A DNA stretch of 42,194 nt from a virus: the IMG/VR virus record IMGVR_UViG_3300023172_000061, positions 1 to 42,194 of that record, one strand, 5' to 3'. Made by a program: the position numbers and the translations under genes. This document shows positions 9,229 to 33,524 of this stretch, one piece after another. Each line of letters begins with the position of its first letter. Within the stretch, counting starts at the first letter, position 1. The notes beneath the pieces are model-generated. The model was not told the origin of the DNA. It did not search any database and was given only the letters and a program-made list of their open reading frames with translations.

Positions 9229-12200
9229 TTAGATAAATAAATCAAAATCTTCTATAAAAAAATCTTTTAGAGGAATTTCTTCTAGATCTATTTTATCATT
9301 TTTGCTTGTTTGCATCAATGTTGGATAATGCGTACCTTCTAAATTTAAGCGATCCATATTGCGAGCAATACCTTGTTCTTCAATAAGCGCCCTTTGCTCG
9401 TTTGTACTTAAGGTGGACTCAGATAGGAAAGAAGTTTTTTGAGAATCTTTTTCAATTGGCTCAAAACTATAATTTGATTGCCTTATTTCTGATTCACTAA
9501 GACTTACATCTAAGTCGCCTCTTGGGATATATAGATCCAAACGAGTTCCATTGTTTACTATTCTAACATAGTCAGGAATTTCATAATCAGATGAAGTCAT
9601 CTTATACAATTTATCTTTAACTAAAACATTTCCTCTTACGTCTTTCCATGCAGCAACTTTTGAAGTTGTTGCTGAAGAAAGCCCTTGACCAGCGTTAGTG
9701 GCTGTTTGACCGGCAGAAGACTGTTGTTCAGCAGTTTGCATTGGGTGCCCCGATGACTGTTGTTGCTGTTGTTGTCTTTGCAACCACTGTCTTGTCATAT
9801 CAGTTGGCACGTTTGGATACATTTCTTGCAATTGCGCCTCTTCTTCTTGTTGCTGTTGAAGTTGCCCAAGAACGCCGGGATCTGGAGTCGCATCAGAACC
9901 TGCTTGATAGGCTTGCTGTGTCATAACAGCATCGCCCATTTGAGATGTTTGTTGAGCAATCCCCATTGTCTGATTATACGATTGATCGTAAGGAGATGGA
10001 GTTTGTGCTAACGTATTGTTGGGTAATGATGTGAAATCAGATTCTTTTTTTTTAGATTCTCTTGGTAAATCTATTCCAAACTGCCCTAACGCTCTTCTGT
10101 CTCTTTCATCCATTTGAAAATCTTCTGGGTCTTTAATAATTGTTCTGGGATCTGCAAAAACACCTTGCTCTTCTTGCAGTCTTTCTGACTTTTCGATATC
10201 TTCAGGAAGAAAACCAATTTCTGGACCAATGTTGTCTTTAAACATTCCAGAAACTCCTTGAATTTCATCAATTATTGCTTTTATTCCAGCATTAAACTCT
10301 TCTACACCCATGCCTAATGAGTCTAACTGTTGCATCATAGCGTCTGTATTACCCATTATCTCTGGAGGCATAACTTCAGCAAGCATTTGAAGTCCTTGTT
10401 TTATTCTTTCATTTTGTGCCTGAAGACTTCTAATGGCTAACACAAAAACTTCTTCAACTAACTCTTTTGCTTCCATAGGGTCTATATCTCTTCCACTTTG
10501 TTCGATAGATTCTTCAACTACTTCATCTGAATAAACATTATTTATTGCAGTTTCAAGATAGTTTTCAGCATAATCTTCAATAAATGCTTCAATATTTTCT
10601 AGATCGGCCATAGCCTTTCTTGAATCTCCAGTATTTACGACTTCTTGTGCAAGAAAATGGTAAGGATAGAACAATTTTTTTTCTAAATACGCTTGAGGCA
10701 TTAATTGCAATGCATCTTCATCATGTTGCAATTCTTGATTCATAAGAAGATAATCAGCAGCAGCAACTTTTTCTTGTTGCGGAGTAATCATTCCAGAAGT
10801 TTCTTGCTGATTAATCTTTTCTTCAGAATTTGCTCCTACATTTTCTCCTTTTGAGGGGAATTTGTTATTAGTTCTTTCTTTCTTTGCTTTTTCTTTTTTC
10901 TCTTTTTCAACATCTTCAAGCACTTCCATGATATCCATCTGATGCATACCTTCTGGTAAATCATGCGGGTCATTCCCTGCTTCTTTCCATTCAATTCCCA
11001 TATTAACAATTGAAGGATCTACTAGCGGATCATTGCTGGCTACTCTCTTTACCTGTTCAAGCGCCCAAATAGTATATTCGTGCCCATATGATGGATAAAG
11101 AGTATTAATAATATCGCTTTCGTGAGTTCCCGCTTCCATAAAAGCCGCTACTCTTGCGAGAACTGGACGGTCTTCTTCTACATAACCATCAAATTTTGAT
11201 TCATCAAGAGAAGCAAAAACTGGCTTTACTCTAAGAGAATCGTGAGATGCCGCTACTGCTCCGGGAATAAGAGTTTGTTGGTTTTGAGGCATCTTAGGTG
11301 GCGTTCCTACTCCATCAATCGGAATAGGACTCATATTTGTATTTGTTGGAGACATAGCATCTGTGGGAGATGATGGTTCTGGCAATCCAGTATTTCCTTC
11401 TGGGGGAGCCTCTTCCTCTAACCCAACAGGAGTATTCAAAACAGAATTGTGATATTGTTCTGGAACAGCAGTTAAAATAGAAGAAAGTTCAGCAATTGTT
11501 TCCGCTTCGTGAGCATAACTATAAAGTGCCCACCAGACAGCGCGGTTCTCTGTAACTTCACCAGATTTTGCCCATTGAGTTAACGCAGAATTAACTTGCG
11601 CTCTTAATGATTCAATATCTGAATCCTTCTTCTTAATTCCTGAAGCGGCTTCAAACATTAAATTATCTGAGATGTGATCAAATGGCATATCAGAACGGCT
11701 TACTGATGCTTGTGGAGCCATACCCGGGGCTGTTGTATTCATCATTTGAATTGGTTGAACGGCTTCCTCTTGTCCACCACCACCAAACAAATTACCAACA
11801 ATTGGAACGTTACGAAGAGCATTACTAAGACCTACTGCTGAAAGACCCTTTTTTACATATGGCATAATTTTGGGCAAACCAGATTTAACCAATTGTGGGC
11901 CAAATACGGCGGCAGCAGCCGCTAGGGGTAGAGCAGACTCTTTTTGATAATTAGAAACAGAACTAATTCCGTTATAATTTTTATCTTGCGTATTCATCAC
12001 TTCAATAATAAAACCAGTTCCGGGTAGATCTTCTTCTCCCAATTCTGGGTCTGAACAAGTAGTTAAGAAATCCATAAGATAGCCCTCAAATTCATCAACA
12101 TCTTCAGTCTTAAACTCTTCTTTTCTACGAAGAGAGTTTACATTCTGTAAAAGTTGCTGAACAAAACTATCTGGCTCACTTAGGGGGTCGGGCCATTCCT

Positions 12201-12297
12201 CTCCCTCTGGATCATAATTTTCATCGGCTGGACTTACTTTTTCACCCATTGCTAATTTTCTATCTTTCTTGGACATTTTAAACGCGAAATCAGACAC
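9229..12297 (-). CDS. large glutamine-rich protein, probably virion-associated
   Basis: 1022 aa, unrecognised. The GTG start at 12297 has AAGGAG six bases upstream. Regions in order: a charged N-terminus (1-120); an Ala/Gly-rich hydrophobic patch (LAAAAAVFGPQLVKSG to VPIVGNLFGGGG, about 125-175); helical segments; a lysine/glutamate stretch (EKEKKEKAKKERTNNK) near 480; a long helical region 530-730; a Gln-rich low-complexity stretch (about 780-880); and a C-terminal small domain after KVAAWKDVRGNVLVKDKLY. Short look-alike pieces recur (GIKKKDSDIESL and SKKKESDFTSL; KVAADY and KVAAWK). Size, composition and a place between fibre and replication genes suggest a minor virion or cargo protein, but there is no diagnostic domain. 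Confidence 0.6.
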   Translation of the reverse strand: MSDFAFKMSKKDRKLAMGEKVSPADENYDPEGEEWPDPLSEPDSFVQQLLQNVNSLRRKEEFKTEDVDEFEGYLMDFLTTCSDPELGEEDLPGTGFIIEVMNTQDKNYNGISSVSNYQKESALPLAAAAAVFGPQLVKSGLPKIMPYVKKGLSAVGLSNALRNVPIVGNLFGGGGQEEAVQPIQMMNTTAPGMAPQASVSRSDMPFDHISDNLMFEAASGIKKKDSDIESLRAQVNSALTQWAKSGEVTENRAVWWALYSYAHEAETIAELSSILTAVPEQYHNSVLNTPVGLEEEAPPEGNTGLPEPSSPTDAMSPTNTNMSPIPIDGVGTPPKMPQNQQTLIPGAVAASHDSLRVKPVFASLDESKFDGYVEEDRPVLARVAAFMEAGTHESDIINTLYPSYGHEYTIWALEQVKRVASNDPLVDPSIVNMGIEWKEAGNDPHDLPEGMHQMDIMEVLEDVEKEKKEKAKKERTNNKFPSKGENVGANSEEKINQQETSGMITPQQEKVAAADYLLMNQELQHDEDALQLMPQAYLEKKLFYPYHFLAQEVVNTGDSRKAMADLENIEAFIEDYAENYLETAINNVYSDEVVEESIEQSGRDIDPMEAKELVEEVFVLAIRSLQAQNERIKQGLQMLAEVMPPEIMGNTDAMMQQLDSLGMGVEEFNAGIKAIIDEIQGVSGMFKDNIGPEIGFLPEDIEKSERLQEEQGVFADPRTIIKDPEDFQMDERDRRALGQFGIDLPRESKKKESDFTSLPNNTLAQTPSPYDQSYNQTMGIAQQTSQMGDAVMTQQAYQAGSDATPDPGVLGQLQQQQEEEAQLQEMYPNVPTDMTRQWLQRQQQQQQSSGHPMQTAEQQSSAGQTATNAGQGLSSATTSKVAAWKDVRGNVLVKDKLYKMTSSDYEIPDYVRIVNNGTRLDLYIPRGDLDVSLSESEIRQSNYSFEPIEKDSQKTSFLSESTLSTNEQRALIEEQGIARNMDRLNLEGTHYPTLMQTSKNDKIDLEEIPLKDFFIEDFDLFI

Positions 12298-19228: not shown

Positions 19229-19780
19229 TTAACTCAATGTAATATTGATAGTAATTTCCCAAGTTTCGCCAACTTGCTTTGTCCCGATGTAATCAACTTT
19301 TCTATTCAATACACGACTTGTTGCAACTGTTCCATTTAATATTCCCCACTCATTCCAAGGAAACACGGCAGCGGCACTTCCAAAAGAACTTCTAAAAGAT
19401 ATCGTTGAATTAGCAGAACCCGTTCCGTCTGAATGAAGTGGATACCCTGTTTCCATCGTACCATATGCTCTATAGGTGTCTGTTGTTCCTAAAGCCCCAG
19501 TGTCTAAATCTGTTTGATTAGCAGTTGCCGGAAGAATAGATGTTCCAATTCCAATATAGGCATTATTTGCATCAAAGTATGATAAAGCAGAACCTCCACC
19601 ACTAATTCCATTTCCTAGCATGAATTCCCACATAGCAGATGCTCCACCGTGTAGCAATAGATTTCCTTGTCTTTTAACAGTTTCATAAGGTTCTATTAAT
19701 TGTTTTTTAACTATCTCAATAGAATCTGCTTTATATTTATTAACTTCCCAATTAACTTTCCACTTAAAAGAATCTGACAT
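19229..19780 (-). CDS. virion protein, paralogue of 14738-15310
   Basis: 183 aa starting MSDSFKWKVNWEVNKYKAD. I prefer this ATG (ATAGGAAATAAA directly upstream, one base after the previous stop) over an in-frame start at 19801. It shares with 14738-15310 the series W-x-V-x-K-Y, EPYE, GNLLLHGGAS, YFDANNAYIGIG, YPLHSDGTG, SFRSSFGSAAAVFPWNEWGILNG and VLNRK. Duplicate copies bracketing the fibre genes suggest two versions of one structural element, perhaps for different fibres. Confidence 0.7.
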   Translation of the reverse strand: MSDSFKWKVNWEVNKYKADSIEIVKKQLIEPYETVKRQGNLLLHGGASAMWEFMLGNGISGGGSALSYFDANNAYIGIGTSILPATANQTDLDTGALGTTDTYRAYGTMETGYPLHSDGTGSANSTISFRSSFGSAAAVFPWNEWGILNGTVATSRVLNRKVDYIGTKQVGETWEITINITLS

Positions 19781-19781
19781 T

Positions 19782-20177
19782 TTATTTCCTATAATAAGCA
19801 ATTATTGAATCGTTTACACCCGGAGCGGTTGCCATTGTAATAGTAGACGTTCCTAGTGTATAATCTCCAGCCGTTCCTGAAGTCATCAAAAGTCCTCCTA
19901 CATAAAGTCTTAGACTTTCTGGGGGAGTTGGAGTTCCCGCAAGCGTAAAGGTCACATTTACGTTATTTTTAGTTCCTGAAGGAACTTCGTTATCAACAAA
20001 AGTAGTTGATGTTGGTAATGCTGTTGGCACATATGCTGTTCCGTTAAAAATCAACGCTTGACCAGAAGTTGCTGAACCAGCAGATAGGTTAGAAACGCTT
20101 AAACCAGCAGTGCCGATATCTGCATCTTCTATATTTAGAGGGCCTAATCTGCTTTTTGGTACTTTTGAATTACTCAT
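19782..20177 (-). CDS. hypothetical fibre-region protein
   Basis: 131 aa. The first half contains IEDADIGTAGLSVSNL and GQALIFNGTAYVPTALP, a motif typical of phage fibre shafts. The second half (NNVNVTFTLAGTPTPPESLRLYVGGLLMTSG, DYTLGTSTITMATAPGVNDSIIAYYRK) is a compact beta domain widely found at tail-fibre ends. No signal peptide. It is likely a structural part of the tail tip, translated directly before 19229-19780. Confidence 0.65.
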   Translation of the reverse strand: MSNSKVPKSRLGPLNIEDADIGTAGLSVSNLSAGSATSGQALIFNGTAYVPTALPTSTTFVDNEVPSGTKNNVNVTFTLAGTPTPPESLRLYVGGLLMTSGTAGDYTLGTSTITMATAPGVNDSIIAYYRK

Positions 20178-21053
20178 TTAAATAATTCTCCATTTGCTTT
20201 TTGATGTAGTGTTAAAATAATTCATCCAATATTGTTCATGTTGTTTTTTAGGACTTACTATATCAAGAACAGGACTTTCTTCTAATGATTGTATATTTTG
20301 TGGTGTTTGATTTTGTGCAGAAAAAGTTTTATTGTATTCTTCTAAGGTTTCTTCTGGAACTTTTAAGAACATTTCAACTATTTGTTGAAGATAAAGACTA
20401 GTATTTTTAGAAAAGTTTGTTTTGAGCCATTCTTGTGGAGTTGAACTTTTTTTAAAATTTTCTACTTCTTTTTCTTGTGCCTGTTCAATTTCTTTTAGCA
20501 CTTTATAGTATTTATTATCAATAAAAGTTTTTTTTGCTTCAATATTTTGCATATAAAATTTATTATATTGATTATTAATATTTAAATATTCGTCGAAAGT
20601 TAAGTTTCTATTTTGATTTTGTAAACGTTCTTGTAGAAGTTGAAGATAATAAAGAGAATCATTAAGTTTTTTATCAGTTTTAAATATTTCTTGTGAAATT
20701 CTGTTATAAAACAAGTCATGAACATATTTTGGTAAATCAATTGAATAAGTATTCATAACTTTTGCAAATTCAAATATCGTATACTTACTGTTTTCTTTCC
20801 ACCAAAAAAGGCCACCGACTGACGCTATGTAGTTGTTTTGTTTTGCTCTTGCAATTCTAGCATTAATTTGTTGATAATTTGGTTGTTCAAACCCATACCA
20901 ATAGTTGCGCCAATTTTCACTTTGCCATAAGTCTTCAGTTGAAAAACCAAATTCGCCATTAGCATGGTTTCTTGTTAGCGCAAATTGTCTAATTATATTT
21001 GCACCTTCTTCAATTGAAGGCCCAAGTCCCCTTGGCATAGATTTTTTCCACAT
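20178..21053 (-). CDS. hypothetical helical protein ending SKWRII
   Basis: 291 aa, not recognised. Begins MWKKSMPRGLGPSIEEGANI. Rich in Asn, Tyr, Gln and Lys; long helical stretches (YLQLLQERLQNQNRNLTFDEY, KVLKEIEQAQEKEVENFKK) suggest an elongated helical protein. It ends TSKSKWRII, which resembles the NKWKRI and LKWKRI ends of the two big proteins at 23015-24997 and 28930-30501. Composition is extremely AT-rich here, for example 20521-20580. It lies between fibre and lysis genes with no gap to the next gene. Confidence 0.55.
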   Translation of the reverse strand: MWKKSMPRGLGPSIEEGANIIRQFALTRNHANGEFGFSTEDLWQSENWRNYWYGFEQPNYQQINARIARAKQNNYIASVGGLFWWKENSKYTIFEFAKVMNTYSIDLPKYVHDLFYNRISQEIFKTDKKLNDSLYYLQLLQERLQNQNRNLTFDEYLNINNQYNKFYMQNIEAKKTFIDNKYYKVLKEIEQAQEKEVENFKKSSTPQEWLKTNFSKNTSLYLQQIVEMFLKVPEETLEEYNKTFSAQNQTPQNIQSLEESPVLDIVSPKKQHEQYWMNYFNTTSKSKWRII

Positions 21054-21054
21054 A

Positions 21055-21432
21055 TTAATTCATTCCTGTTGGATTTGTTCTTGGAGGTCTACGATCTGGG
21101 AAATAACTTGGTCCTCTAGAGGGTCTAGTCCCTCTAACAACTCTTTTAAAATTAGAAGTAAAACTTTCTGCTTTAATAAGATGAGGTTCAAGTGGTCCCG
21201 TTGTATGTAAATCGTAAGTAACAATAGTAGTTATATCGTCAGAATACATAACTGTTCCGACTTGACCTTCTCGTATCCTAACTTTTTGATTAATTTGAGT
21301 ATCTGGAGTTGGCCCGCTTTTACCGGGATTAACTGTAGGATCTGTTGGATGATCCTGTGGACGATACTCAACTACAGTACCCTCAATCTCAACTAAATTT
21401 TTAACGTATTCCCCGCTTTTAAATGCACTCAT
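21055..21432 (-). CDS. hypothetical 125-aa protein
   Basis: Starts MSAFKSGEYVKNLVEIEGT with a weak ribosome binding site. Residues 10-80 look like a small beta-barrel (LVEIEGTVVEYR, KVRIREGQVGTVMYSDDITTIVTYDL), reminiscent of an SH3- or baseplate-type domain. The tail is Arg/Pro-rich (VVRGTRPSRGPSYFPDRRPPRTN). It is the first gene downstream of the lysis terminator. Function unknown. Confidence 0.5.
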   Translation of the reverse strand: MSAFKSGEYVKNLVEIEGTVVEYRPQDHPTDPTVNPGKSGPTPDTQINQKVRIREGQVGTVMYSDDITTIVTYDLHTTGPLEPHLIKAESFTSNFKRVVRGTRPSRGPSYFPDRRPPRTNPTGMN

Positions 21433-21462
21433 CTCTTATATTAAGTCAAAGTCATACAATAA

Positions 21463-21490
21463 AAATGAGCCTCACAATGGAGGCTCATTT
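21463..21490 (-). terminator. intrinsic terminator after lysis genes
   Basis: AAATGAGCCTC (21463-21473) and GAGGCTCATTT (21480-21490) make a perfect 11-bp stem with a six-base loop. On the minus strand the stem is followed by ATTTTTATT. It lies just after the holin-like gene stop at 21502, so it should end the lysis transcript. The other strand also has a T-rich run, so it might act in both directions. Confidence 0.85.
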
Positions 21491-21501
21491 CTTTTAATTT
21501 A

Positions 21502-21873
21502 TTACTGTTCTGGAGTAATCGGTGGACTAAGATCTGTATCTGAAACTACAGGATCGTCAACAAATACTTCCACATCATTGCCAACATCTGCGGTCAAAGA
21601 TGCAGGATTTGCATAGGCTTCAGCACTAGCAAGTTGCACCTTTGAATTAGCAAAGTATGAACGTGATGCTGCTACAATAGCCTGAGAAAGAGCAGAAACA
21701 ATACCTGCGATAGTCGCTAACCAAAAACCGTACTTATCAGATACTTCTGCTGGCAAAGCGCCAGTAAGCGTTGTTAGAAAAGTTGCTACAGAAAGCAAAC
21801 CAGCAGTTACTGCGGTAATAATACCAGTAATAGTTACTGGACCCCAACCAACGCTAATGTTTGGTGTGTTCAA
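21502..21873 (-). CDS. holin-like membrane protein
   Basis: 123 aa. Two hydrophobic segments are visible: about residues 12-38 (VTITGIITAVTAGLLSVATFLTTL) and 46-70 (YGFWLATIAGIVSALSQAIVAA). An Ala-rich then acidic C-terminus (VEVFVDDPVVSDTDLSPP) follows. Size, two membrane spans and a place directly after the endolysin fit a class II holin that releases the endolysin. The family is not provable from sequence alone. Its gene ends before the terminator at 21463. Confidence 0.7.
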   Translation of the reverse strand: MNTPNISVGWGPVTITGIITAVTAGLLSVATFLTTLTGALPAEVSDKYGFWLATIAGIVSALSQAIVAASRSYFANSKVQLASAEAYANPASLTADVGNDVEVFVDDPVVSDTDLSPPITPEQ

Positions 21874-21887
21874 TTTAATCTCCTAAG

Positions 21888-22646
21888 TTAATTAACTTTC
21901 TTACTAAAACGACGCAATCTTCTACCTAAGCGCTTCTCTAGAGATTTTTGCGCCGCATTTCTATACTCTATCTTATTCCAAGGACCGTAATAACGCAAGT
22001 CACCTACTCGGATAAAGTATCTTTTATTTCTTCCCTCTCCACGACTGACTGGAGCGAGAGTTGTTCCACGATAAAGTGGGCTATTCTTAATTTGATTTAG
22101 TACCTTATCACGATATTCTTTTTTCTTCCAGCGTGCAATCTTACCATTGACTGTAAGAAGTTTTTGTTGCGCTCCTAAATCTTCTAGCCAATATTTACGA
22201 CGAACTGGATTTGGAACATAATCATCTACAGCAGGAGGTACAATAATTGTTGCTCCAGCAATCGGTCTACGACCTGTTGCTACCATATTATTTTTATTAC
22301 CTTCTATTGTTGATACTGTTCCGTCGCTGTTGTGAGCAGTGATAATAGCAACGTGAGTACCACAATTTACCCACAAAGATCCGGGCGGGATCTTCCCTTT
22401 TCCATTCCACTTATATTTTTTACCTTTTTGGCAAATAACAGCAGTAGAAGGGTGATTGATTCCTGCATCATCAACTCCTGCTTCTGAAAACATTGCGTCT
22501 GAAAACATTCCGCACCAAGGTTCGCCTTTCATGCCCCATCTGGCTTCCCAGCGGTCAATATCTTTTCCACGGTTTGAGCCATAGGGTACTTCTCTGACTC
22601 CTAAATATTGAAATGCTTTTTTTACTACTTTTTCACCTTTTGTCAT
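21888..22646 (-). CDS. endolysin with CHAP domain
   Basis: 252-aa peptidoglycan hydrolase. The N-terminal CHAP domain (about 1-150) shows the cysteine motif EPWCGMFSDAMF near residue 45 and the histidine motif CGTHVAIITAHN near 98, followed by STIEGNKNN. CHAP enzymes cleave amide or peptide bonds in the cell wall. No signal peptide is seen, so it probably needs the adjacent holin. The C-terminal 100 residues are strongly basic (KIARWKKKEYRDKV, RRLRRFSKK) and could bind the wall, though no known binding repeat is visible. The start codon has a modest AAGG upstream. Confidence 0.88.
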   Translation of the reverse strand: MTKGEKVVKKAFQYLGVREVPYGSNRGKDIDRWEARWGMKGEPWCGMFSDAMFSEAGVDDAGINHPSTAVICQKGKKYKWNGKGKIPPGSLWVNCGTHVAIITAHNSDGTVSTIEGNKNNMVATGRRPIAGATIIVPPAVDDYVPNPVRRKYWLEDLGAQQKLLTVNGKIARWKKKEYRDKVLNQIKNSPLYRGTTLAPVSRGEGRNKRYFIRVGDLRYYGPWNKIEYRNAAQKSLEKRLGRRLRRFSKKVN

Positions 22647-22655
22647 TTTACACCT

Positions 22656-23012
22656 TTATGGAATCATATAGCCTAGTACTAGTCCTAAGACAGCACCTAC
22701 TAATGGACCTATCATAGCAGCAATAATTGCAACTGTCAAGGTTCTTCTATAATTTCTATCTTCTGTTGTTTCTGTTTTTTCTTCAAACATTTTCTTTTCA
22801 GTTTGATTTAGTTGATACTTAAGTTGATCAATCTGTAATGCTTGAATTTCATTTTTTATACTTTCGATTTGTTCCCCCAACCCTGAAAACTTTTCATCTA
22901 GTGCTATTGTCAAACTATCAAACGCATCTCTGCTTTCCTGTCTAAAATCTTCAAATTCTCTATAGTTAACATAAGAAGGTTGACCATTCATTTCGGGAAA
23001 ACTGCTTGACAT
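22656..23012 (-). CDS. coiled-coil membrane protein, possible holin partner
   Basis: 118 aa from MSSSFPEMNGQP. I chose this ATG because AAAGGATTTAAAA precedes it and it follows the upstream stop by two bases; an in-frame ATG at 23030 lacks such a site. Residues 20-85 are heptad-rich and charged (IESIKNEIQALQIDQLKYQLNQTEKK). The last 30 residues (VAIIAAMIGPLVGAVLGLVLGYMIP) are a single membrane span with a hydrophobic end. Topology resembles XhlA/hemolysin-type lysis accessories. It lies directly upstream of the endolysin and probably helps lysis. Confidence 0.65.
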   Translation of the reverse strand: MSSSFPEMNGQPSYVNYREFEDFRQESRDAFDSLTIALDEKFSGLGEQIESIKNEIQALQIDQLKYQLNQTEKKMFEEKTETTEDRNYRRTLTVAIIAAMIGPLVGAVLGLVLGYMIP

Positions 23013-23014
23013 TT

Positions 23015-24997
23015 TTAAATCCTTTTCCATTTATTTTTAATTGACGATCTTCTTTCCCCCTCTTCAAAATTAGGTGGAGCAGGAGATTGTCCTTGCGGCA
23101 TAGGAGGAAACTCAGAATTTTGATTTTCTAACTCTAACGGATTACCTGCTTGAGAAACATCTTGTTGAACAACTTGATAGTTTGGAGCATCTGGTTCAAA
23201 ACTGTAAGTTTGATTAGGATCAAACTCTGCTCCAAAATACCCTACTGGTAAGGATCTTGACTCCCAAAACATTGCCATAACGTGAGAACATGGCCGACCT
23301 TCAAATTTCTTATATTTTCTTGTTCTTCCGTATGCATACTGACCCCATTTACACTCACAGTTCCAATGCGTAATTCTTTGACTGCTAGGGTCTTCTCTAT
23401 ATATTATGCATTCGTAAATACCATTATCACCCTGTACTACTCCTTCAACTGCATTTTCAGCATTGGTGTTTATTACTACTTGACCGCCATCTTTTAGACG
23501 TTTTGCTTTCATTTCAACGTCGCGCCAAGCGGCTTCTCTTCTAATTTGCTTTGATATTTCAAGAATTGCTGACTCTACATTTGATGAACTTTTATAGAAG
23601 TTATTAATAAATGAAGACAAGTTATCTTTTGTATTCATTTCAGGATTGTCAACAACAATATCCATCAAAGATTTCAGTATTTCTCCCACTTGAGGGCCAC
23701 TATCAATGCCTAAAAGTTGCATAACTTCGTTGCCATTAATTGCTAAATCTTTGGGAGTAAAAGCATTTTGTGCTTCATATTCAGCATCAATTAATTGCCT
23801 CATTAAATCAGACATTTCTCTTGTAGCACTATCATTGCCTTTACCTAAATAATCTGACTCTTTAAGATCAAGTAAATTATGAGCAATTTCGTAAGAACCG
23901 GCTTGATTAAGAAACTTTCTTGCTCCCTTTGATGAATTAAAAATGGGGAACATATGATTTTGAATTAATTGTTTAATTCTTGCTATTCTGTTTGCAGGAT
24001 ATCTTAATCTTCTTAAAATATCTTCAGCCATTTGTGCGCCAACAGTTTCATGGTCTTGTCCTTGACCAGAATCATTTTTATAATAGTGACCATTTCCCTC
24101 TTCGTCGTACCAAACAGAATCTGGTTTGCCAATATCGTGAAACAAAGCCGCGAGTCTCATATCTGTATCATCAGATCTGCGAGCCATATTTTTGACAACT
24201 TCCATCAGGTGAGTCCCTAGATCATAATTATGATGTTTGTTTTTTTGATCGTAACCAAATGTTGTATGAACTTCTGGCAAGAAGTGTTCTAATACTCCGG
24301 TTTGTTGACCAATTTGTATTGCTTGATGAGGATGTTCTCCGCTGAGTATTTTATCTAATTCCATGCCCATAATCTCTGGAGCGATTTTAGCCAAGTACGG
24401 GCCATATTTACGCATTTGTTCTTTAGTTTTTTCATCTGGTTGTAAACCGTGCTTGCTTATTGCAGTTAATGCTCTAAGCGTTCTTGAAGGATCATCTCTA
24501 AAAGAGTTTTCATTGATAACTCTTAACAATCCCTTTTCAATATCATCAATTCCATTTAAAGGATCTACAATCTCTCCGGTTTGAGCGTTTACGGCAATTG
24601 CGTTTGCAGTAAAATCTCTTCTTTCTAAATCTCTTTCAATTCGAATAGACGGATCACTTTTAAATTCCCAATCTTTACTTTCTTCTCCAACCTTAGTTTC
24701 TATTCTTGGTAAAGCAATTTCTACTTCTTCGTTTTGATATCTAAACCTATATACTGGAAACTGTTTTCCAGTTTTATTTAATGTTGCATTTGGGAAATTA
24801 CTTAATACAGACTTAATTGTATCTTCGTCTACTCTTGCTACCAAATCTATGTCTTTTGGTTTCTTTTGAAGAAGAACATCTCTAACCGCTCCACCAACTA
24901 CATAAACTTCTCCAAATGGAGATAATAGTTCAACAACTGTTTTTGCCGCAGGATTATTTCTTACTAATCTTAGTATATATTCACTTAGATTATCCAT
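23015..24997 (-). CDS. CCA-adding/poly(A) polymerase-like nucleotidyltransferase with HD and SWIM domains
   Basis: 660 aa. Residues 25-150 are a class II tRNA nucleotidyltransferase head: VVGGAVRDVLLQKKPKDIDLV (GG plus DxD metal site), RRDFTANAIAV and DDPSRTLRAL. Residues about 250-360 are an HD phosphohydrolase-type domain (LFHDIGKPDS, DHETVGAQ). Near 545-590, WNCECKWGQ and RPCSHVMAMFW form a SWIM zinc finger. The protein ends SSIKNKWKRI. The head is the enzyme type that adds CCA to tRNA ends. This phage's tRNAs and tmRNA all lack encoded CCA, so it probably matures them; it could instead act as a poly(A) polymerase. Fusion to a SWIM finger is unusual. It starts one base after the 24998-28945 stop. 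Confidence 0.85.
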   Translation of the reverse strand: MDNLSEYILRLVRNNPAAKTVVELLSPFGEVYVVGGAVRDVLLQKKPKDIDLVARVDEDTIKSVLSNFPNATLNKTGKQFPVYRFRYQNEEVEIALPRIETKVGEESKDWEFKSDPSIRIERDLERRDFTANAIAVNAQTGEIVDPLNGIDDIEKGLLRVINENSFRDDPSRTLRALTAISKHGLQPDEKTKEQMRKYGPYLAKIAPEIMGMELDKILSGEHPHQAIQIGQQTGVLEHFLPEVHTTFGYDQKNKHHNYDLGTHLMEVVKNMARRSDDTDMRLAALFHDIGKPDSVWYDEEGNGHYYKNDSGQGQDHETVGAQMAEDILRRLRYPANRIARIKQLIQNHMFPIFNSSKGARKFLNQAGSYEIAHNLLDLKESDYLGKGNDSATREMSDLMRQLIDAEYEAQNAFTPKDLAINGNEVMQLLGIDSGPQVGEILKSLMDIVVDNPEMNTKDNLSSFINNFYKSSSNVESAILEISKQIRREAAWRDVEMKAKRLKDGGQVVINTNAENAVEGVVQGDNGIYECIIYREDPSSQRITHWNCECKWGQYAYGRTRKYKKFEGRPCSHVMAMFWESRSLPVGYFGAEFDPNQTYSFEPDAPNYQVVQQDVSQAGNPLELENQNSEFPPMPQGQSPAPPNFEEGERRSSIKNKWKRI

Positions 24998-27900
24998 TTA
25001 AATTCCTCTTCGCCTACTTGTATCTGGGGCAAATCCTTCAGAACCCCAACTATCTTCTCCCTTATAAGGTTCTGTAGTCGCTAATAAACCTTCTTGTGCC
25101 CTTTCCCATCTTTCGAATTCTTCTGTGCTAGGTTCTGGCGGCATCATATAAAAGTTTATTTGCCCACCAGCAATTCCTCCTGCTCCAGCGTCTGGATTTT
25201 CATTCATATAAATAGTATTTTTTGCATATTCTAATAAATTAATTAATTCATTCATGCTTCTTTCCAAAAATCTAGAATTATATGATCCAAGTTGAAATCT
25301 GTCATTGAACATTTTATTTATTGGATTTACAATTGCATTTAATCCTGTTTCTTTAGCAATGTAGTATACAATATCTCTTAGTTCTCTAAGTTTTGTTTCA
25401 TACAGACCAGAATCATCAACTTCTTTTCGCAGAAGGTCTTGTTGTATCAATTTTCTTTCTTTATCCGAATCACTATCTCCCGGCTGAATTTGTTTTTCTT
25501 CAAGTTCTAAAGGAGGTCCAGTTAATGTATTTTCATTTTGATTAAACCAAATTGTTCTTTGAATAGGAGAGTTTAAATTTCTTTCAAAAAAATTTCTCGT
25601 CAATTCTTTTATTTCTTCAGACAAATTAATTGCATATTGAACATAATTTATTAAATATGTTCTTGATTGATTAATTTCTTCTTTAGGCATTGATTTTGGC
25701 TCTATTTGAAATTCAACGTAAGAATTTTCAAAGTCGTAATTATAGTTCCAACTTCCATATTCACTTTCTAGACTTTTAGAAATTTCTGAATCATCAAACA
25801 AATGGTATATATCATTTACCGAAGTTGTATAATCAACACTTGAAATTAAATCTTTTAAAACTATTCTAATTCCATTTAAAATTGCAATTTTGTTTTTTTT
25901 GTTTTCTTTGTAAAACATAGATGTTTGTTTTTGTACATAAAAATCAAAAGCATTTACATAGGTATTAATAATTTTTTCAATTTGTCCTGTAGAAATAGAG
26001 GTTAAAATAATATATGTTCCAAGTCCTTTTACTGATTCATAAAAATCCCATATTTCATCTGAAATATTATTTTCTTCATCAAAAAGCAAATTTTCGTATT
26101 TTTCTACAATAGAATTTATAAAATTAAAAACATTTGAATATGACCCGTCAAAAGTATATGGCTCTACTATTCTAACGAGAGCATATCCATAGTCATCTCT
26201 TTCTAGTTCCTCTACCGGGGTGTCTTCATCTGGATAATAATAATTCATCATATCAAACAAATAAGCGCTCTCGCCATAGTCACCTTCTACCCATTGCCAG
26301 AGCGTTTCTAATTCATCACCACTAGATATTTCGGGTATATTTGAAAGTCCCCAAAAAACATCTGGTTCCATATGATATTCAGTTGTTTCTATATCTTCTT
26401 CTGCAACGGGCAAATCGCTCTCATAATAAAGACCACTTCTTTGTCCTTCTGGTTTATCAAACCAATCGTGACCAGCACCATATGCCGCAACTGCTTTGAG
26501 TCCTTTTATTTCTTCTTCATAAGCCCATCGGGGGTAATCAAATGGAAGTGGTATGCTTTTTATTGCCTCTTTGTGTTGTTCGACTGCATCTTCTGTGCTT
26601 GATGCGTTATAAACATACTCTTTACCATTTCTTGTTCTGACTATATATTTATTTGGATTTTTGCTTTGTCTTTGAAAACTTTCTTGTCCGAAGAAAGCAT
26701 TTAAAATCTTTTGTTCATTTTGTCTTACGGCATGATCCTGACGACCAAACGCTTGTCCCAGAATCACCCCTTCTTTATCTAATTCCAAAGTTGTCCAAGG
26801 AACTCCATCCGGGTCGCGCACAGAATAAACAGTATTAAGATCTTCATCCCTTCTTCTAATATGAGGCTGTTCCCAACTTCCAATACAGTGGTTACATATC
26901 CTTCCTTCTAATTCTAAATCGTCTGTACTTTCAAGTCGGTATACTCCCCAAACTCCCGGTTTTGCTTTTTCGGGATTACCTTTTTTAACTTCAAAAGTAA
27001 AAACAGGACTATCTGATTCGTATGCGACTTCTCCTTCTTTAAATTGTCTTAATAATTCTTTATATTCTTCTCTTTCTTTTGTTTCTGTTTCTATCTGACG
27101 AAGAGAAAGGCTTAGTTCATTAAAACTATCCATTCCTTCTAAATTTGTAGGAAATCTTAAGTCTTTATATTCATTTAAGAGATATTGAAGCCTTATACTG
27201 TTCATATATTGAATTGCATTTACGGCACCTTCAAATATAGTATTTCTAGCCGGATAGTTAGACCTGTTTTGTACATAGAAATCTAAAACTTCTTCTGGAC
27301 GCATTTTAAATATTGATCCGTCTAAAATCATATCTAATATATTTTCAAAATTTTCTACATAGTTTCCATATCTATCGGTTAATAGCATAGAAACTTTATT
27401 TAAGGTAGTCAAAAACCCAAAATCTAGATGATTATCTTTTTTCATTTCTTTAATTTTTTGATTAAAAAGATTTTCAATTTTTTGCAATTTATTGTTTAAT
27501 TGATTATTGTCTGAGTTTTGTAAACTAAACCACCAGCGCCAACTAAAATCTATTTCTTCATCTAAAGAAATATCTGTGTAAAGTAAGCGATCTATTGTCC
27601 CAATAAACTCTGATTCGGCGCTCCAGTCATATGATTCGCCAAGAAACTCATAGTTTTCACTATTAATAAAATCTCCAACTTTTGTATTTTTACCAAAGTT
27701 TCCCGTCCAAAGTTTTCTAAAATCTTCTTTATAAGATTGTAAATAATCTTTATCTCTATATAAAGGATCAGTTGGTCCACTAAAAAGATACATTCTATAT
27801 GCATTATTATTGATCATCACATCATTTCTTTGTACTGCTTTTTTGTACAAAGAAATAATTCCTCCCCAAAATTTAATGCTTTCTTCCGTTAAAACGCCCA

Positions 27901-28945
27901 TATCAACAATAGATTGTAAACGCTCTTTCCAAACGGGGTATCTTTTATTCCATTTTGATTCTTCACTGATCTGCTTATCAAGGATTTTTTGAGCGATTTG
28001 CTTTATCTTGGATTCTTCACCCTCGTTGCTATTTTTATTAAAACTGAATTTAAAATCTTCACTATCGGTTTTATTTATATTATTATAATATTGAGCAACT
28101 GCTTTTAGGTCTTTTTTGCCAAAGGTGCAGTCGCAAGGATACCCTTTAGAGTTTAGATGTGTTTTTTGACGAAAAGATCTATTATAAAAAGTAGATTCAT
28201 AATAATAATTTACAAAATCGTCTTTTGTAAATGCTTCTTTTTGAAAAGCAATTCTTTGTCCAACATTTTTTAGGCGATCAAATGTTCCGTTATTATCTAA
28301 AAATTTATAAATAACATTACCTTCGCTGTAATCGCCATAGTCAATCTGATCTTCTTTTCTTTTTTGATGCACTTTTTTATACATTGCCTTAGCATCTTCA
28401 TATTTATGATTATCAATCAAAGTATTAATTTTGTCAGATACCTGAACCCCCATTAGAATCCAATCAGGCTTTTCTTTTTTAATATCTGTAGTTGGTCTTT
28501 TTGGTTTAAGAACCCATTCGTTTTTTTGAAAATCCCACGCGCTTCTAAGACCGAGAATAAAAAGGTCTTCAATGTCTACACCAATTGGTTGAACAAAATG
28601 TTGATATTGGTGTTTAGTTCTAGGAAAGAAGGTGCCGTCTAAAGATTCAATCACAATAGCAATAAGATCTGCACGATCTTCTTCATCAAACTCGTCGGCG
28701 TTACAAACAATAGAAATGTCTACATCTGATTTTTCCGAATATTGATATGTACAAAGAGAACCTGTTAAATAGAAATCAAAAGCATATGGGTTAAAGTTGT
28801 TTTGTCTAAAAACTTCTCTAACGTGATCTAAGTGATATTCAAAAAAAGCACTTTTGGGAGTCATCCCGTTAAATACATCTTGATCTAAAGTATCGTGAAT
28901 CGGATCTAGAATGTTAGACTTTTTATGGATTAAATTCTCTTCCAC
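24998..28945 (-). CDS. giant protein with N-terminal nucleotidyltransferase-like and central PcfJ-like regions
   Basis: 1315 aa. I prefer the GTG at 28945 (GGAAGG seven bases upstream) over an in-frame TTG at 28960. Near residues 60-85, DFYLTGSLCTYQYSEKSDVDISI follows the pol-beta nucleotidyltransferase pattern G-S-x(n)-D-x-D. A central block near 640-765 (GRICNHCIGSWEQPHIR, NTVYSVRDPDGVPWTTLEL, GVILGQAFGRQDHAVR) resembles the PcfJ-like family of conjugative elements. The remainder is helical, acidic and not recognised. The start overlaps the stop of 28930-30501, so the three large genes form one unit. The domain readings come from motif inspection only. Confidence 0.6.
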   Translation of the reverse strand: MEENLIHKKSNILDPIHDTLDQDVFNGMTPKSAFFEYHLDHVREVFRQNNFNPYAFDFYLTGSLCTYQYSEKSDVDISIVCNADEFDEEDRADLIAIVIESLDGTFFPRTKHQYQHFVQPIGVDIEDLFILGLRSAWDFQKNEWVLKPKRPTTDIKKEKPDWILMGVQVSDKINTLIDNHKYEDAKAMYKKVHQKRKEDQIDYGDYSEGNVIYKFLDNNGTFDRLKNVGQRIAFQKEAFTKDDFVNYYYESTFYNRSFRQKTHLNSKGYPCDCTFGKKDLKAVAQYYNNINKTDSEDFKFSFNKNSNEGEESKIKQIAQKILDKQISEESKWNKRYPVWKERLQSIVDMGVLTEESIKFWGGIISLYKKAVQRNDVMINNNAYRMYLFSGPTDPLYRDKDYLQSYKEDFRKLWTGNFGKNTKVGDFINSENYEFLGESYDWSAESEFIGTIDRLLYTDISLDEEIDFSWRWWFSLQNSDNNQLNNKLQKIENLFNQKIKEMKKDNHLDFGFLTTLNKVSMLLTDRYGNYVENFENILDMILDGSIFKMRPEEVLDFYVQNRSNYPARNTIFEGAVNAIQYMNSIRLQYLLNEYKDLRFPTNLEGMDSFNELSLSLRQIETETKEREEYKELLRQFKEGEVAYESDSPVFTFEVKKGNPEKAKPGVWGVYRLESTDDLELEGRICNHCIGSWEQPHIRRRDEDLNTVYSVRDPDGVPWTTLELDKEGVILGQAFGRQDHAVRQNEQKILNAFFGQESFQRQSKNPNKYIVRTRNGKEYVYNASSTEDAVEQHKEAIKSIPLPFDYPRWAYEEEIKGLKAVAAYGAGHDWFDKPEGQRSGLYYESDLPVAEEDIETTEYHMEPDVFWGLSNIPEISSGDELETLWQWVEGDYGESAYLFDMMNYYYPDEDTPVEELERDDYGYALVRIVEPYTFDGSYSNVFNFINSIVEKYENLLFDEENNISDEIWDFYESVKGLGTYIILTSISTGQIEKIINTYVNAFDFYVQKQTSMFYKENKKNKIAILNGIRIVLKDLISSVDYTTSVNDIYHLFDDSEISKSLESEYGSWNYNYDFENSYVEFQIEPKSMPKEEINQSRTYLINYVQYAINLSEEIKELTRNFFERNLNSPIQRTIWFNQNENTLTGPPLELEEKQIQPGDSDSDKERKLIQQDLLRKEVDDSGLYETKLRELRDIVYYIAKETGLNAIVNPINKMFNDRFQLGSYNSRFLERSMNELINLLEYAKNTIYMNENPDAGAGGIAGGQINFYMMPPEPSTEEFERWERAQEGLLATTEPYKGEDSWGSEGFAPDTSRRRGI

Positions 28946-30501
28946 TTCAATACCTTCCAACTTGATTCTTTTGTATTGTTAATCCAATGTTCGTAAATTT
29001 CTTGCCAGTTCACTTTGGACTCATCTAGCCAATGATTTGCTATATCTGTCGGTTCAGGAATTCCCATTAGGCCATAAACAATCTCTCGCATTTTTCTAAT
29101 ATAATCTTCTTGAGCCTCTGGATCGTCTGGATATCTTCTTTCAGCATCGCTTCGCCATTTTTGATCATCATTTTCTAATTGCATTAAAATTTCTTCTTCA
29201 TCGGTATATTCAGCAAAATCGTTTCTAAGTTGTTCATTATATGGACCAATTACTCTTTCGATTGCTGCCATAGCAAAGTCATCAACAGAAATATTTTTCT
29301 TTGCTAACTCCGTAAAATACAAATAGTCATCATAATCGTTTTCCATCATAAGATTAACGTTCCAAGTTTCCCAGTTTGTCCAGCCATTATGATCTGAGAT
29401 TTTATTCCATTTAGACCCTTTCCACCAACTTTCGGGTTCCCACTTATCTAGAATTTGATTTTTTCTTTGTAAAGAATAAACTTCATCGTAACCTAATTCT
29501 TCGTTTACTTTTTCAAACCAATGACCTAAAATTTCATCAAAGTCTACTTTCAGAATATCATCAATTCGTTCTGTTTCGTCACAGGTTCTGTTATGTACAT
29601 CAATAACCATTTCTTCAATTTTTTCACGCCAAACTTCTTTTAATTCAAAAAAAGTTTCACTTGGGTATTTACTAATGGCTTTTTTTGCTAAATCTAAAAA
29701 ATATTTATATATATTAAATTCGTTTTCCATAATGTTATTTGTCAAAAACGTTTCCCAGTTTGTCCAGCCTCCATAGTCAGAAACTTTTTCCCATTTAGAA
29801 AACAAATTAAATGAATTGCCAAATTCTCTTAATAGTAAAGATCGAACTTCATTCCAGTTTATCATTCCCTCATCTATGATATATTCCGCAGGATCAAATG
29901 GAACTCCATCCATTTCCCATTTATCCATCATTGCTTGAGTTAAAGAATTAGCAAGTTGTTGATCGCCTCTTGATATATTATTTGCAAAATATTCTACATA
30001 AGCAAAAACTTCTTCTTCTGATAAGGCTCTCCATTGCTTTGCGTTTCTAGGAAGGTTGTCAGGGAATTGCTTAAAAGTGTTTTGATTAAACTTCTTTATA
30101 AAAGGAATAAAGTATCTTCTTACATCATCGGGAGTAGGATTTGCTTCAAAAAGTTTATCTAGATTTAACATACTATCTTGACCATGTTCAGCAATTAAAA
30201 ACTGGGCGACCAACTTTTCTTCTTGACTTGAGGCAAGTCTAACGTTTGAAACTTTATTTAAACTCACTACCTCTACTCTTTCTCTAACAATCTCTTTATC
30301 TGGTTCAGACGCTTTCCATAGACGAACAAAATAATCTAAATTTATTGGAACTTTAACATCTTCTTTATATAAAGAAATAGATTTATCAGCAGGAAGATAG
30401 TCTCCTGTGATATAATTATCTTCTAGGGGTTCTTCAAAATCAAAATTATTTACAAAGTGAATTTGATCTTGATCTATATTCCAAATAAATCTATATTGCA
30501 T
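28930..30501 (-). CDS. protein with two NWETW-type repeats
   Basis: 523 aa; first gene of the long minus-strand operon. Two copies of a domain that starts SDYGGWTNWETFLTNN (near residue 240) and SDHNGWTNWETWNVNL (near 370) are each followed by about 100 helical residues; this GWTNWETW motif recurs in many phage proteins of unknown function. Each copy is introduced by SKW: FSKWEKVSDYGG and GSKWNKISDHNG. The protein ends SSWKVLKWKRI. No catalytic motif is visible. The ATG has AAAGAGAAT upstream. The two domains clearly arose by internal duplication. Virion incorporation is possible but unproven. Confidence 0.65.
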   Translation of the reverse strand: MQYRFIWNIDQDQIHFVNNFDFEEPLEDNYITGDYLPADKSISLYKEDVKVPINLDYFVRLWKASEPDKEIVRERVEVVSLNKVSNVRLASSQEEKLVAQFLIAEHGQDSMLNLDKLFEANPTPDDVRRYFIPFIKKFNQNTFKQFPDNLPRNAKQWRALSEEEVFAYVEYFANNISRGDQQLANSLTQAMMDKWEMDGVPFDPAEYIIDEGMINWNEVRSLLLREFGNSFNLFSKWEKVSDYGGWTNWETFLTNNIMENEFNIYKYFLDLAKKAISKYPSETFFELKEVWREKIEEMVIDVHNRTCDETERIDDILKVDFDEILGHWFEKVNEELGYDEVYSLQRKNQILDKWEPESWWKGSKWNKISDHNGWTNWETWNVNLMMENDYDDYLYFTELAKKNISVDDFAMAAIERVIGPYNEQLRNDFAEYTDEEEILMQLENDDQKWRSDAERRYPDDPEAQEDYIRKMREIVYGLMGIPEPTDIANHWLDESKVNWQEIYEHWINNTKESSWKVLKWKRI

Positions 30502-31077: not shown

Positions 31078-32886
31078 ATGGAAGAGAACGAGAAGCAGCA
31101 AAAGTTTAGTCCGTCTGGACTTGGAGAGATTATTTTTAAAGAGAGATACGCTAGAAATGAAGAAGAGACTTGGGAAGAAGCCTGCGAAAGAGTTGCGCGT
31201 CATATCGCTGACGCAGAGACTAATGGAAAAGTTAACAAGTACTCAGAAAAATTTTATGAGGAATTGGTAACAAATAGGTTTATGCCCGGTGGTCGTATTT
31301 GGTACGGGGCTGGTCGTCCAAAGGGACAGTTACTTAACTGTTTTGTTATTCCAGTAGACGATTCCCGAGAAGGTTGGGGAAAGATGCTTTATGACACTAC
31401 TGTTATTTCAGGTTTAGGTGGCGGCATTGGAGCAAACTATTCAAAGCCCCGTCCTCGCGGATTCGCAATTAAGGGAACTGGTGGAGTATCAACAGGTGCT
31501 GTGTCTGCTATGAAGATGCAAGACGGTATCGCTAATGAACTTCGTCAAGGCGGTGGGCGTCGTGCTGCTCTTATGCAGTGCCTTAATATTAATCACCCAG
31601 ATCTTGAAGAGTTTCTTCACGTTAAACTAGATCGTCAAGAACTTGAAAATGCAAACATTTCTGTTGTTCTTAATATGCCAACAGAAGAATTTGTAAGATT
31701 AGTTCAAGAAGATGGTGATATTGTATTAGAATTCAATGGACTCCCAACTGGTGAAATCCTTAAGGCTAAAGAAGTTTGGGAGACTCTTGTAACAAATGCG
31801 TGGAATTCTGGTGAGCCGGGTGTTCTTAATGGGCACCTTGCAAACAAGATGAACAACATATACTACTATGAAGAACTTATTTCTACTAATCCTTGTGGTG
31901 AAATTTGGTTAGGCGCATATGATTGTTGTGATCTTGGCTCTTTGGTCCTTCCAAGATTTGTTAAGGACGGAGAATTTGATTGGGACCAGTTTGATGCTTC
32001 AATTCGTCTTGCTGTTCGTTTCTTAGATAATGTACTTGATGTTAATCATTTTCCTCTTCCTGAGATTCAAGAGAAGTGCCACATGAACCGTCGCCTTGGC
32101 GCTGGCGTTATGGGACTTCACACTATGCTTTTAAAATTGGGTCTTCGTTACGATTCAGAAGAAGGATTTGAATTCGTTAATAAACTATTTGAGTTTTACA
32201 AGAATGTAGCCTATGATGCTTCTGCAACTCTTGCTGCTGAGAAGGGACCATTCCCCGGTTTTGATCGTGACAAATATTTGCAAGGTGGTTTTGCTAAGAC
32301 GCTTAAGCGTGGTATTCGTAACAAGATCAAGGCTCACGGTCTTCGCAACTGTGCCCTTATGACTATTGCTCCTACCGGAACTACTTCTATGGTATCTGGT
32401 GTAACTAGCGGCATTGAGCCTTTGTTTGCTCCCGTATACTGGCGTCGTTATCGTGTTAGCGATGAAAAAGGTCGTGACCAGAAAAAACAAGAACTTGTTA
32501 TTACAGATGAATATAAGGAGTTTGGTGAGATTGCCGTTGGTGCTTATGACATTCCTGTAGAAGCACATTTTGAAATGCAGAAGACTGTGCAAAAGCACAT
32601 TGATAATGCAGTATCAAAGACAATTAATCTTCCAAAAGAGTATCCACTTGACAATCTTAGCGACTTATGGTTACAATACCTTGATTCATGCAAGGGAACA
32701 ACTATTTATCGTCAAGGTTCTCGCGGAGAAGAGCCACTAGAACACATTCCTGTAGCAGAGGCTAAAAAGATTATTGAAGAGCAAGGTATTGTCATTGAAG
32801 GATCTAACTTTGCTGAACTTAATTCTCTTGAGTGTGTTGGTGGGGTTTGCGATATTCCAGATTTAGAAGAAGTTGCTGCTGCATAA
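31078..32886 (+). CDS. nrdJ: class II (adenosylcobalamin-dependent) ribonucleotide reductase
   Basis: Reduces ribonucleotides to deoxyribonucleotides. About 602 aa from the ATG at 31078, which has AAAGGAG upstream (an ATG-like start further up at 31054 lacks one). Visible features: LLNCFVIPVDDS near residue 86 (redox Cys), GGGIGANYSKPRPRG, TNPCGEIWL near 271 (thiyl radical Cys and catalytic Glu), LGAGVMGLHTML, APTGTTSMVSGVTSGIEPLF, and a C-terminal ECVGGVCD cysteine pair for re-reduction. No small-subunit gene is present, which fits class II. Use of B12 depends on the host making or importing it. Confidence 0.93.
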   Translation: MEENEKQQKFSPSGLGEIIFKERYARNEEETWEEACERVARHIADAETNGKVNKYSEKFYEELVTNRFMPGGRIWYGAGRPKGQLLNCFVIPVDDSREGWGKMLYDTTVISGLGGGIGANYSKPRPRGFAIKGTGGVSTGAVSAMKMQDGIANELRQGGGRRAALMQCLNINHPDLEEFLHVKLDRQELENANISVVLNMPTEEFVRLVQEDGDIVLEFNGLPTGEILKAKEVWETLVTNAWNSGEPGVLNGHLANKMNNIYYYEELISTNPCGEIWLGAYDCCDLGSLVLPRFVKDGEFDWDQFDASIRLAVRFLDNVLDVNHFPLPEIQEKCHMNRRLGAGVMGLHTMLLKLGLRYDSEEGFEFVNKLFEFYKNVAYDASATLAAEKGPFPGFDRDKYLQGGFAKTLKRGIRNKIKAHGLRNCALMTIAPTGTTSMVSGVTSGIEPLFAPVYWRRYRVSDEKGRDQKKQELVITDEYKEFGEIAVGAYDIPVEAHFEMQKTVQKHIDNAVSKTINLPKEYPLDNLSDLWLQYLDSCKGTTIYRQGSRGEEPLEHIPVAEAKKIIEEQGIVIEGSNFAELNSLECVGGVCDIPDLEEVAAA

Positions 32887-32891
32887 GGTTA

Positions 32892-32913
32892 GTTGCTATA
32901 ATTAAATAGCAAC
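32892..32913 (+). promoter_or_regulatory. hairpin containing extended -10 upstream of tRNA-Asn
   Basis: GTTGCTAT and ATAGCAAC are perfect 8-bp arms around AATTAA. TGCTATAAT (32894-32902) lies in the left arm and would start transcription near 32909, seven bases before the tRNA. The hairpin has no T-run, so it is a weak terminator for nrdJ at best; the promoter reading is better. Confidence 0.55.
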
Positions 32914-32915
32914 GT

Positions 32916-32987
32916 TCGGGAGTAGTTCAGTGGTAGAACAGTCGGCTGTTAACCGATATGTCGCAGGTTCGAATCCTGCCTCCCGAG
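32916..32987 (+). tRNA. tRNA-Asn (GTT)
   Basis: Seven-bp acceptor TCGGGAG/CTCCCGA, D-arm, anticodon loop CTGTTAA (GTT) and T-arm GCAGG TTCGAAT CCTGC. No CCA is encoded. It is the first of the tRNA group, just downstream of the class II reductase. Confidence 0.95.
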
Positions 32988-32990
32988 TAT

Positions 32991-33061
32991 GCGGCTATAG
33001 TTTAGGGGTAAAACGTTGGCCTTCCAAGCCATATTCGTCGGTTCGATTCCGACTAGCCGCT
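32991..33061 (+). tRNA. tRNA-Gly (TCC)
   Basis: Acceptor GCGGCTA/TAGCCGC, anticodon loop CTTCCAA (TCC, reads GGA), T-arm GTCGG TTCGATT CCGAC. Only three bases separate it from tRNA-Asn. CCA is not encoded. Confidence 0.94.
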
Positions 33062-33068
33062 TGCAGTA

Positions 33069-33077
33069 TGATATAAT
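33069..33077 (+). promoter_or_regulatory. extended -10 promoter
   Basis: TGATATAAT. Start would be near 33084, giving an 18-base leader with TTGGAG before the ATG at 33102. Confidence 0.6.
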
Positions 33078-33101
33078 GTAAAAAACAGATTGGAGTATGA
33101 T

Positions 33102-33281
33102 ATGGTTAATGAGCGTAAGAAGAACACAGATCCTCGCAAGGGGACTCCCGAAGTACTTCATCCAAATAAGTCAGAGCAGGATCGCATGCCTTCGGCAGAG
33201 CGTCCTCGCGTTAAGAAAGCCCAACAGTGGGCAGATCAGATGCAAAAGGATAGACCAAGCGGTATAGGATTAACAGGTTAA
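33102..33281 (+). CDS. hypothetical basic 59-aa protein
   Basis: Starts MVNERKKNTDPRKGTPEVLH; I chose the ATG after TTGGAG (33090-33095) rather than an in-frame TTG. Strongly charged, Lys/Arg/Pro-rich, probably disordered (PSAERPRVKKAQQWADQM). It sits inside the tRNA group with its own extended -10. No function recognised. Confidence 0.7.
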   Translation: MVNERKKNTDPRKGTPEVLHPNKSEQDRMPSAERPRVKKAQQWADQMQKDRPSGIGLTG

Positions 33282-33288
33282 TAATCCT

Positions 33289-33361
<73 letters not shown>

Positions 33362-33364
33362 TTT

Positions 33365-33438: not shown

Positions 33439-33441
33439 TGA

Positions 33442-33523: not shown

Positions 33524-33524
33524 C

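Follow-up and report, generated by a model that had tools for sequence, protein, structure and literature searches.

A short tryptophan-containing peptide of the K-W-x-[KR]-[IV] type occurs five times in three proteins encoded by a stretch of viral DNA (the 42,194 nucleotides of IMG/VR virus record IMGVR_UViG_3300023172_000061, here called the window), and the question is what such a peptide is for. The initial annotation proposed a capsid-packaging signal, a processing site or a docking tag. All five peptides are present at the expected places in genes on the minus strand (Table), and the assertion that the three proteins are otherwise dissimilar stands, with no match among them at E < 0.5 when the called ORFs of a near-identical record were all compared with one another by BLASTP. 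The wider question is how phages choose the proteins that they package in the head, and for the N-termini of the packaged anti-restriction (Dar) proteins of P1 the authors of one study found no consensus by BLAST (PMC9024508). If giant cargo proteins do have a standard boundary peptide, it would provide a handle to recognise cargo, help to show whether these proteins are cleaved into separate units, and offer a view of the exchange of effector domains between phages.

Table. Positions in the window of the proteins and peptides discussed in the text
Feature	Position	Strand	Remarks
523-aa multi-module protein	28930..30501	-	N-terminal module (residues 4-97), middle module, two NWETF/NWETW (DUF7249-like) modules
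Junction linker SKWEKVSD	29776..29799	-	Residues 235-242, ahead of first NWET module (NWETF); Ser codon TCT
Junction linker SKWNKISD	29392..29415	-	Residues 363-370, ahead of second NWET module (NWETW); Ser codon TCT
Linker DKWEPESWWKGS in 523-aa protein	29413..29448	-	Type repeated in giant protein outside the window
C-terminal VLKWKRI, 523-aa protein	28933..28953	-	Overlaps start region of next ORF (1320 aa)
CCA-adding enzyme fused to SWIM domain, 660 aa	23015..24997	-	CCA-adding enzyme, residues 3-470; SWIM domain, residues ~479-583
SWIM domain border REAAWRDV	23516..23539	-	AAWxDV at this place in E3, I3 and Stormageddon
C-terminal IKNKWKRI, 660-aa protein	23018..23041	-	DNA has AAAAGGA upstream of the ATG of the next gene
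291-aa protein	20178..21053	-	Family not assigned: no Pfam match above cut-off, no PHROG match
C-terminal SKSKWRII, 291-aa protein	20181..20204	-	DNA has GGAG upstream of the ATG of the next gene
1022-aa protein	9229..12297	-	Homologues in G005 and G006

The 523-aa protein is found at 99-100% in four IMG/VR contigs. One of them is the near-identical record mentioned above (G001, 92,173 bases), in which the window begins at about base 50,360. G011 is a further contig of the same species, and G005 (129,640 bases) and G006 (110,395 bases) are terminase relatives at 83-84%. The terminase of this clade is 33-38% identical to those of Rhodococcus phage E3, Gordonia phages and Mycobacterium phages such as I3, and the capsid protein of G005 is 53% identical to the E3 capsid protein. 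G005 also encodes a head maturation protease (54915-57389; phrog_18299, 4.9e-24) that is 38% identical to E3 gp77 over 228 columns. Its counterpart in the window's species (G011, 32241-34988) has an insert, SSLKKWQKELKGRGFSFNKSGGGHIKITHQ, which by eye looks like a HicA-type domain and is absent from the G005 protein. The 523-aa protein matches PF23907 (DUF7249) in two stretches with an E-value of 1.7e-7, and its N-terminal module is 33% identical to the product of G005 14172-15107; a search of the phage collection with the protein gave no match at E 0.01. A comparison of the 291-aa protein with the called ORFs of G005, G006, G009, G010, G011 and L090 gave no homologue at E 1e-3.

Many further copies of the peptide occur in giant proteins of the clade. 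The motif [SGK][KR]W[KRENLI][KRIVLTM] is present 12 times in the giant protein of G005 and 8 times in that of G006, between differing domains, and 13 of these 20 copies read S-K-W-K (8 in G005, 5 in G006). The genome totals are 14 for G005 and 11 for G006, where shuffling of the whole genome gave 2.1 and 1.7 on average and at most 8 and 5; for G001, 10 copies compare with a mean of 1.8 and a maximum of 7 in 200 shuffles. The G001 giant, a 3236-aa ORF (2904-12614) that lies outside the window, contributes only three motif copies, two of them S-K-W-K, and has repeated DKWEPxSWWKGS together with some S-K-W linkers. It also contains a longer linker, LGPxxTDxNEAxKHRxxIxDKW, four times with variations. 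What precedes and follows the linker changes from copy to copy and includes ParB-like and HExxH peptidase-like domains and, by eye, PcfJ-like and SHW-repeat domains; in the G005 giant, ParB_N (3.4e-6), phrog_3170 (2.6e-26) and a HELQH motif are found, the PcfJ-like stretch being recognised by eye only. One of the copies with KK (NGKKWKKVR), located in sequence common to the giants, may belong to a fold and not be a linker. When cargo and head proteins are compared with other ORFs of at least 150 aa, with the caveats that the first class was picked by hand, partly with the motif already known, and that most of the G011 giant is common to the G001 giant, KW[KR] is found 12 times (1.8 expected) versus 2 (1.3) in G001, 13 (1.8) versus 2 (2.0) in G005, 12 (1.3) versus 2 (1.6) in G006, and 11 (1.6) versus 0 (0.8) in G011. 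K-W-K-V also appears near the N-terminus of two tail-type proteins (SFKWKVN in window 19229-19801 and KAKWKVE in G005 128214), without the Ser of the pattern.

The linkers coincide with the places where homology between the giants breaks off. Using HSPs between the giants of G005, G006 and G001 and the N-terminal piece from G011, an HSP end was found within 12 residues of 9 of 11 linkers in G005 and of all 7 in G006, where rotation gave means of 3.2 and 2.5 (p 0.0014 and 0.0056). With the linkers masked, ends within 8 residues were again seen for 9/11 and 7/7 (means 2.3 and 1.8; p 0.0012 and 0.0028), and rotation p values ranged overall from 0.001 to 0.009. Only a minority of all HSP ends lie at linkers (11/45 and 8/35). 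The KKDAW module of about 109 residues is 85-90% identical in the three giants of G005, G006 and G001, with neighbours that differ from giant to giant; in G005 and G006 it is bordered by S-K-W linkers, and no S-K-W is present at the G001 borders. The KEAPARSKAQ module, which also occurs in differing contexts, is shared by G005, G006 and G011 at 73-77% identity. Of the 26 differences between G004 and the window in 21.6 kb, 17 fall within 102 bp (28892-28993), probably a short tract of recombination that covers the 523-aa protein's tail and the beginning of the following ORF.

In five alignments of G005 with G006, the codon was changed at 15 of 37 identical residues near G005 linkers (14/34 if three rows without a G006 linker are dropped), while the fraction elsewhere in the segments was 0.37-0.52. 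Synonymous codons near linkers thus change as fast as elsewhere, and it is therefore the peptide itself that is kept. The share of changed codons is uneven, with 9/13 in one segment and 2/11 at the KKDAW module. For the linkers, a DNA repeat instead of a peptide is ruled out by the same 15/37 changed codons, despite a bias at the Ser: of 21 copies, 19 have the codon TCT (binomial 9e-7, tested against 38%), with mixed Lys codons. The copies thus have part of their descent in common and are not independent. S-K-W-[K/E/N]-x-[I/V]-[A/S] is a linker that is found repeatedly between domains of different kinds, lies where homology breaks off and is conserved as a peptide. For this clade, the data support well a recurring module-boundary peptide that is under selection in giant phage proteins with shuffling domains.

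Pattern searches returned only contigs of the window's species for KWEPxxWWKG and only G005 for GARTCTAARTGGAARAARAARTCNCA. A search with TCTAARTGGAARATHGC gave 31 stretches, of which 27 were new (parts of contigs of 2.6-14 kb), and in these no ORF had more than one [SGNTA]KW[KREN]. Within these searches, the repeated linker is therefore found in this clade only. The clade resembles E3 and I3 in having a homologous terminase, a SWIM domain and the N-terminal domain of the giant, and for E3 also in capsid protein and protease, but in the parts of their genomes that were covered, neither phage has a repeated S-K-W linker. Across parts of the E3, I3, Stormageddon and Myrna genomes, 241 ORFs of at least 100 aa contained four single motif matches, none with S-K-W.

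Several hints connect the proteins with the virion. The first domain of the giant matches E3 gp205, annotated as 'structural protein', and I3 gp111, which is encoded three genes after a head decoration gene; a weaker match is a Planktothrix phage 'large polyvalent protein'. The SWIM domain lies within E3 gp76, I3 gp102 and Stormageddon gp12, and in all three phages the gene is located directly before a protease-type gene and three genes before the capsid gene. A proteome study of E3 reportedly identified 28 virion polypeptides by mass spectrometry. We infer that the giants are virion cargo, with linked modules packed into the head. The linker of this clade of uncultured relatives of E3 and I3 would then join the modules of large, shuffling and probably head-carried 'polyvalent' proteins.

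According to a published proposal (Iyer et al. 2017, PMC5512222), polyvalent proteins are predicted to be packed in phage heads and may be processed by a peptidase that they carry themselves. The giants are similar in combining many unrelated domains in one polypeptide, including ParB-like and metallopeptidase domains; the G005 giant falls within the 2 to 15 unrelated domains given for such proteins, and G001 has the associated portal-terminase packaging genes (portal match 1.8e-165, terminase match 8.6e-11). They differ in the uniform boundary peptide, which is not found in the main text of that paper as far as considered here, where 'linker' and 'tryptophan' have no occurrences. In T4 internal proteins and P1 DarB, short targeting peptides bring cargo into the head, and the T4 capsid targeting sequence is removed by the head protease (PMC9024508, PMC5694885, PMC7411985 and PMC12810830, each in part). 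The T4 and P1 sequences are N-terminal, whereas the peptide of this clade is internal or C-terminal, with many copies per giant protein. In the literature consulted, which covered polyvalent proteins, the targeting of cargo to capsids, packaging signals at C-termini and linkers common to several proteins, no common peptide of this kind is named.

Since the peptide is kept at the protein level, it could serve as a processing site or as a docking tag. Our first choice, ahead of docking, is that the linker is read for processing by a protease, although we put this forward tentatively. A processing protease would cut near [I/V]|[A/S] and release the modules; candidates would be the head protease of the phage and the HExxH peptidase-like domain of the G005 and G006 giants. 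The pattern [SGA]KW[KRENL], up to two residues, [IVLMT] has 27 distinct matches, six of them in non-cargo proteins and one C-terminal (SKWRII). The residue after [IVLMT] is Ala or Ser in 17 of the 20 internal cargo copies and in 0 of the 6 non-cargo matches, against a background of 14%. The distance from the Trp to [IV]-[AS] differs between copies by up to two residues, which is odd for a protease site, and at least seven linkers outside the 20 scored (SKWKKKSHW type, SKWIKKEA, GKWKKAEK) lack [IV]-[AS]. The homologues of the 1022-aa protein in G005 and G006 carry, by eye, NRAAKWKPINKTANLS at the site of FLRTAGR in E3 gp76, with AKWKPINKTAN in the position of RTAG in E3 gp76 and I3 gp102. R[TS]A[GS] is perhaps I3's own boundary peptide: it occurs 8 times in 16 tested proteins of the I3 head region (about 1.0 expected) and 0 times in 9 tail and replication proteins (about 0.6 expected). 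For E3, [RK][TE]A[GS] was observed twice in nine proteins (about 0.9 expected), without clear enrichment.

In our second choice, which we consider doubtful, nothing is cut, and S-K-W is a docking or capsid-targeting motif on each cargo module, which would be taken into the prohead alone or as part of a fusion. A short Trp-plus-basic motif with loose spacing fits this role, as does the retention of K-W while synonymous sites change, and the targeting sequences of P1 DarB and the T4 internal proteins are at least a precedent (PMC9024508, in part). These are at the N-terminus, however, and [SK]KW[KREN] is present in the first 20 residues of 0 of 617 called ORFs. Unlikelier still is a peptide that has no reader and is merely copied with the domains by recombination. 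The shared descent indicated by TCT, the position of the linkers at breakpoints and the 102-bp tract of G004 all speak for such passive spread, but the peptide persists despite the changed codons, an argument that is weaker near the KKDAW module, where only 2/11 have changed. Whether for processing or for docking, the linker is most likely read by a factor of head assembly. Going further, the injected effector domains may be plug-in cassettes with a standard end peptide, C-terminal on single-module genes and at joints in giants, so that any domain that gains the peptide would become cargo once a head-assembly factor reads it; we regard this as a rather speculative possibility.

The C-terminal tails may be a different matter. 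The suggestion that one peptide is shared by tails and junctions is supported and could be extended for the domain junctions of probable virion proteins, and is less well supported for the tails: two of the three lack the junction Ser, and they overlap sites where ribosomes bind or where translation of the next gene starts. [KR]Wx[KRI][IV] is C-terminal in 3 of 130 mechanically called G001 ORFs, more than composition would give by chance (300 random draws had a mean of 0.0). Among ORFs of at least 100 aa in eight records, KW[KREN] is found in the last 12 residues only in these three, in the tails of the G005 and G006 SWIM proteins, and in ISKKWRNK of G006. The SWIM domain, fused to the CCA-adding enzyme in the window, is a separate 185-aa protein in G005, G006 and G012, and in G005 and G006 the CCA enzyme is a gene of its own. 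The search for the tail in the genome and its relatives, which the initial annotation had suggested, had a divided outcome. The SWIM proteins of G005, G006 and G012 keep the tail, while the distant SWIM protein of L090 lacks it, as do the separate CCA enzymes of G005 and G006, so that the objection that homologues lack the tail holds by half. KWKRI is invariant in three proteins of the SWIM alignment, although the preceding stretch is gapped and less conserved. A profile search of the genome contigs with the SWIM alignment found no relative, and a predicted structure of the SWIM protein (mean pLDDT 39.7) was set aside.

We slightly favour the view that, in the tails only, K-W-[KR] results from translation of the next gene's ribosome-binding site or overlapping start and resembles the linker by coincidence. 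The DNA of the 291-aa tail reads AAATGGAGAATTATTTAA directly before ATG, and that of the 660-aa tail AAATGGAAAAGGATTTAA before AAATG. Proteins of G006 and G005 that are dissimilar to the 291-aa protein end in ISKKWRNK and IAKQWRKVNELF, respectively, at the same site and before the same next gene, and the 325-aa protein at 4336-5313 ends HWRK on TGGAGGAAATAA. Three comparisons each gave 0 of 3 synonymous changes for the K-R-I codons of the tail, a small number that points only weakly to constraint on the DNA, and the first three Ser codons of the next gene are likewise unchanged. In 163 closely packed minus-strand ORFs, the last 8 residues contain W[KR] in 10 cases and KW[KR] in 5. On the other hand, a ribosome site does not need the Lys before the Trp, yet this residue is kept in the SWIM tails across an AAA/AAG change, which is weak evidence for the peptide. 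Moreover, AAATGGA or AAGTGGA lies upstream of four ATG starts out of 198, each of the four at one of these tails, and is therefore no general ribosome site. For the 523-aa protein, the tail of which is VLKWNRI in G004, the next ORF may start at a TTG at 28960 or, by eye, at an in-frame GTG within the K-W codons of VLKWKRI. On balance, start signals have probably shaped the tails, which consist at least in part of start-signal DNA of the following gene and are perhaps not the same element as the linkers. Given the start-signal DNA and the codon comparisons, KWKRI of the SWIM proteins was dropped as proof of a C-terminal tag.

Some minor observations concern the same DNA. The window contains 11 tRNA genes (32915-37669), and the CCA-adding enzyme is encoded by the same phage. 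By eye, three paralogous protein pairs are of tail type, namely 13767-14645 and 38538-39134, 14738-15340 and 19229-19801, and 15446-16423 and 16420-17451. Finally, an 808-aa protein of G001 (38378-40804) has 7 copies of [RK][TEI][AS][GSD], where 0.57 are expected and the shuffle maximum is 4.
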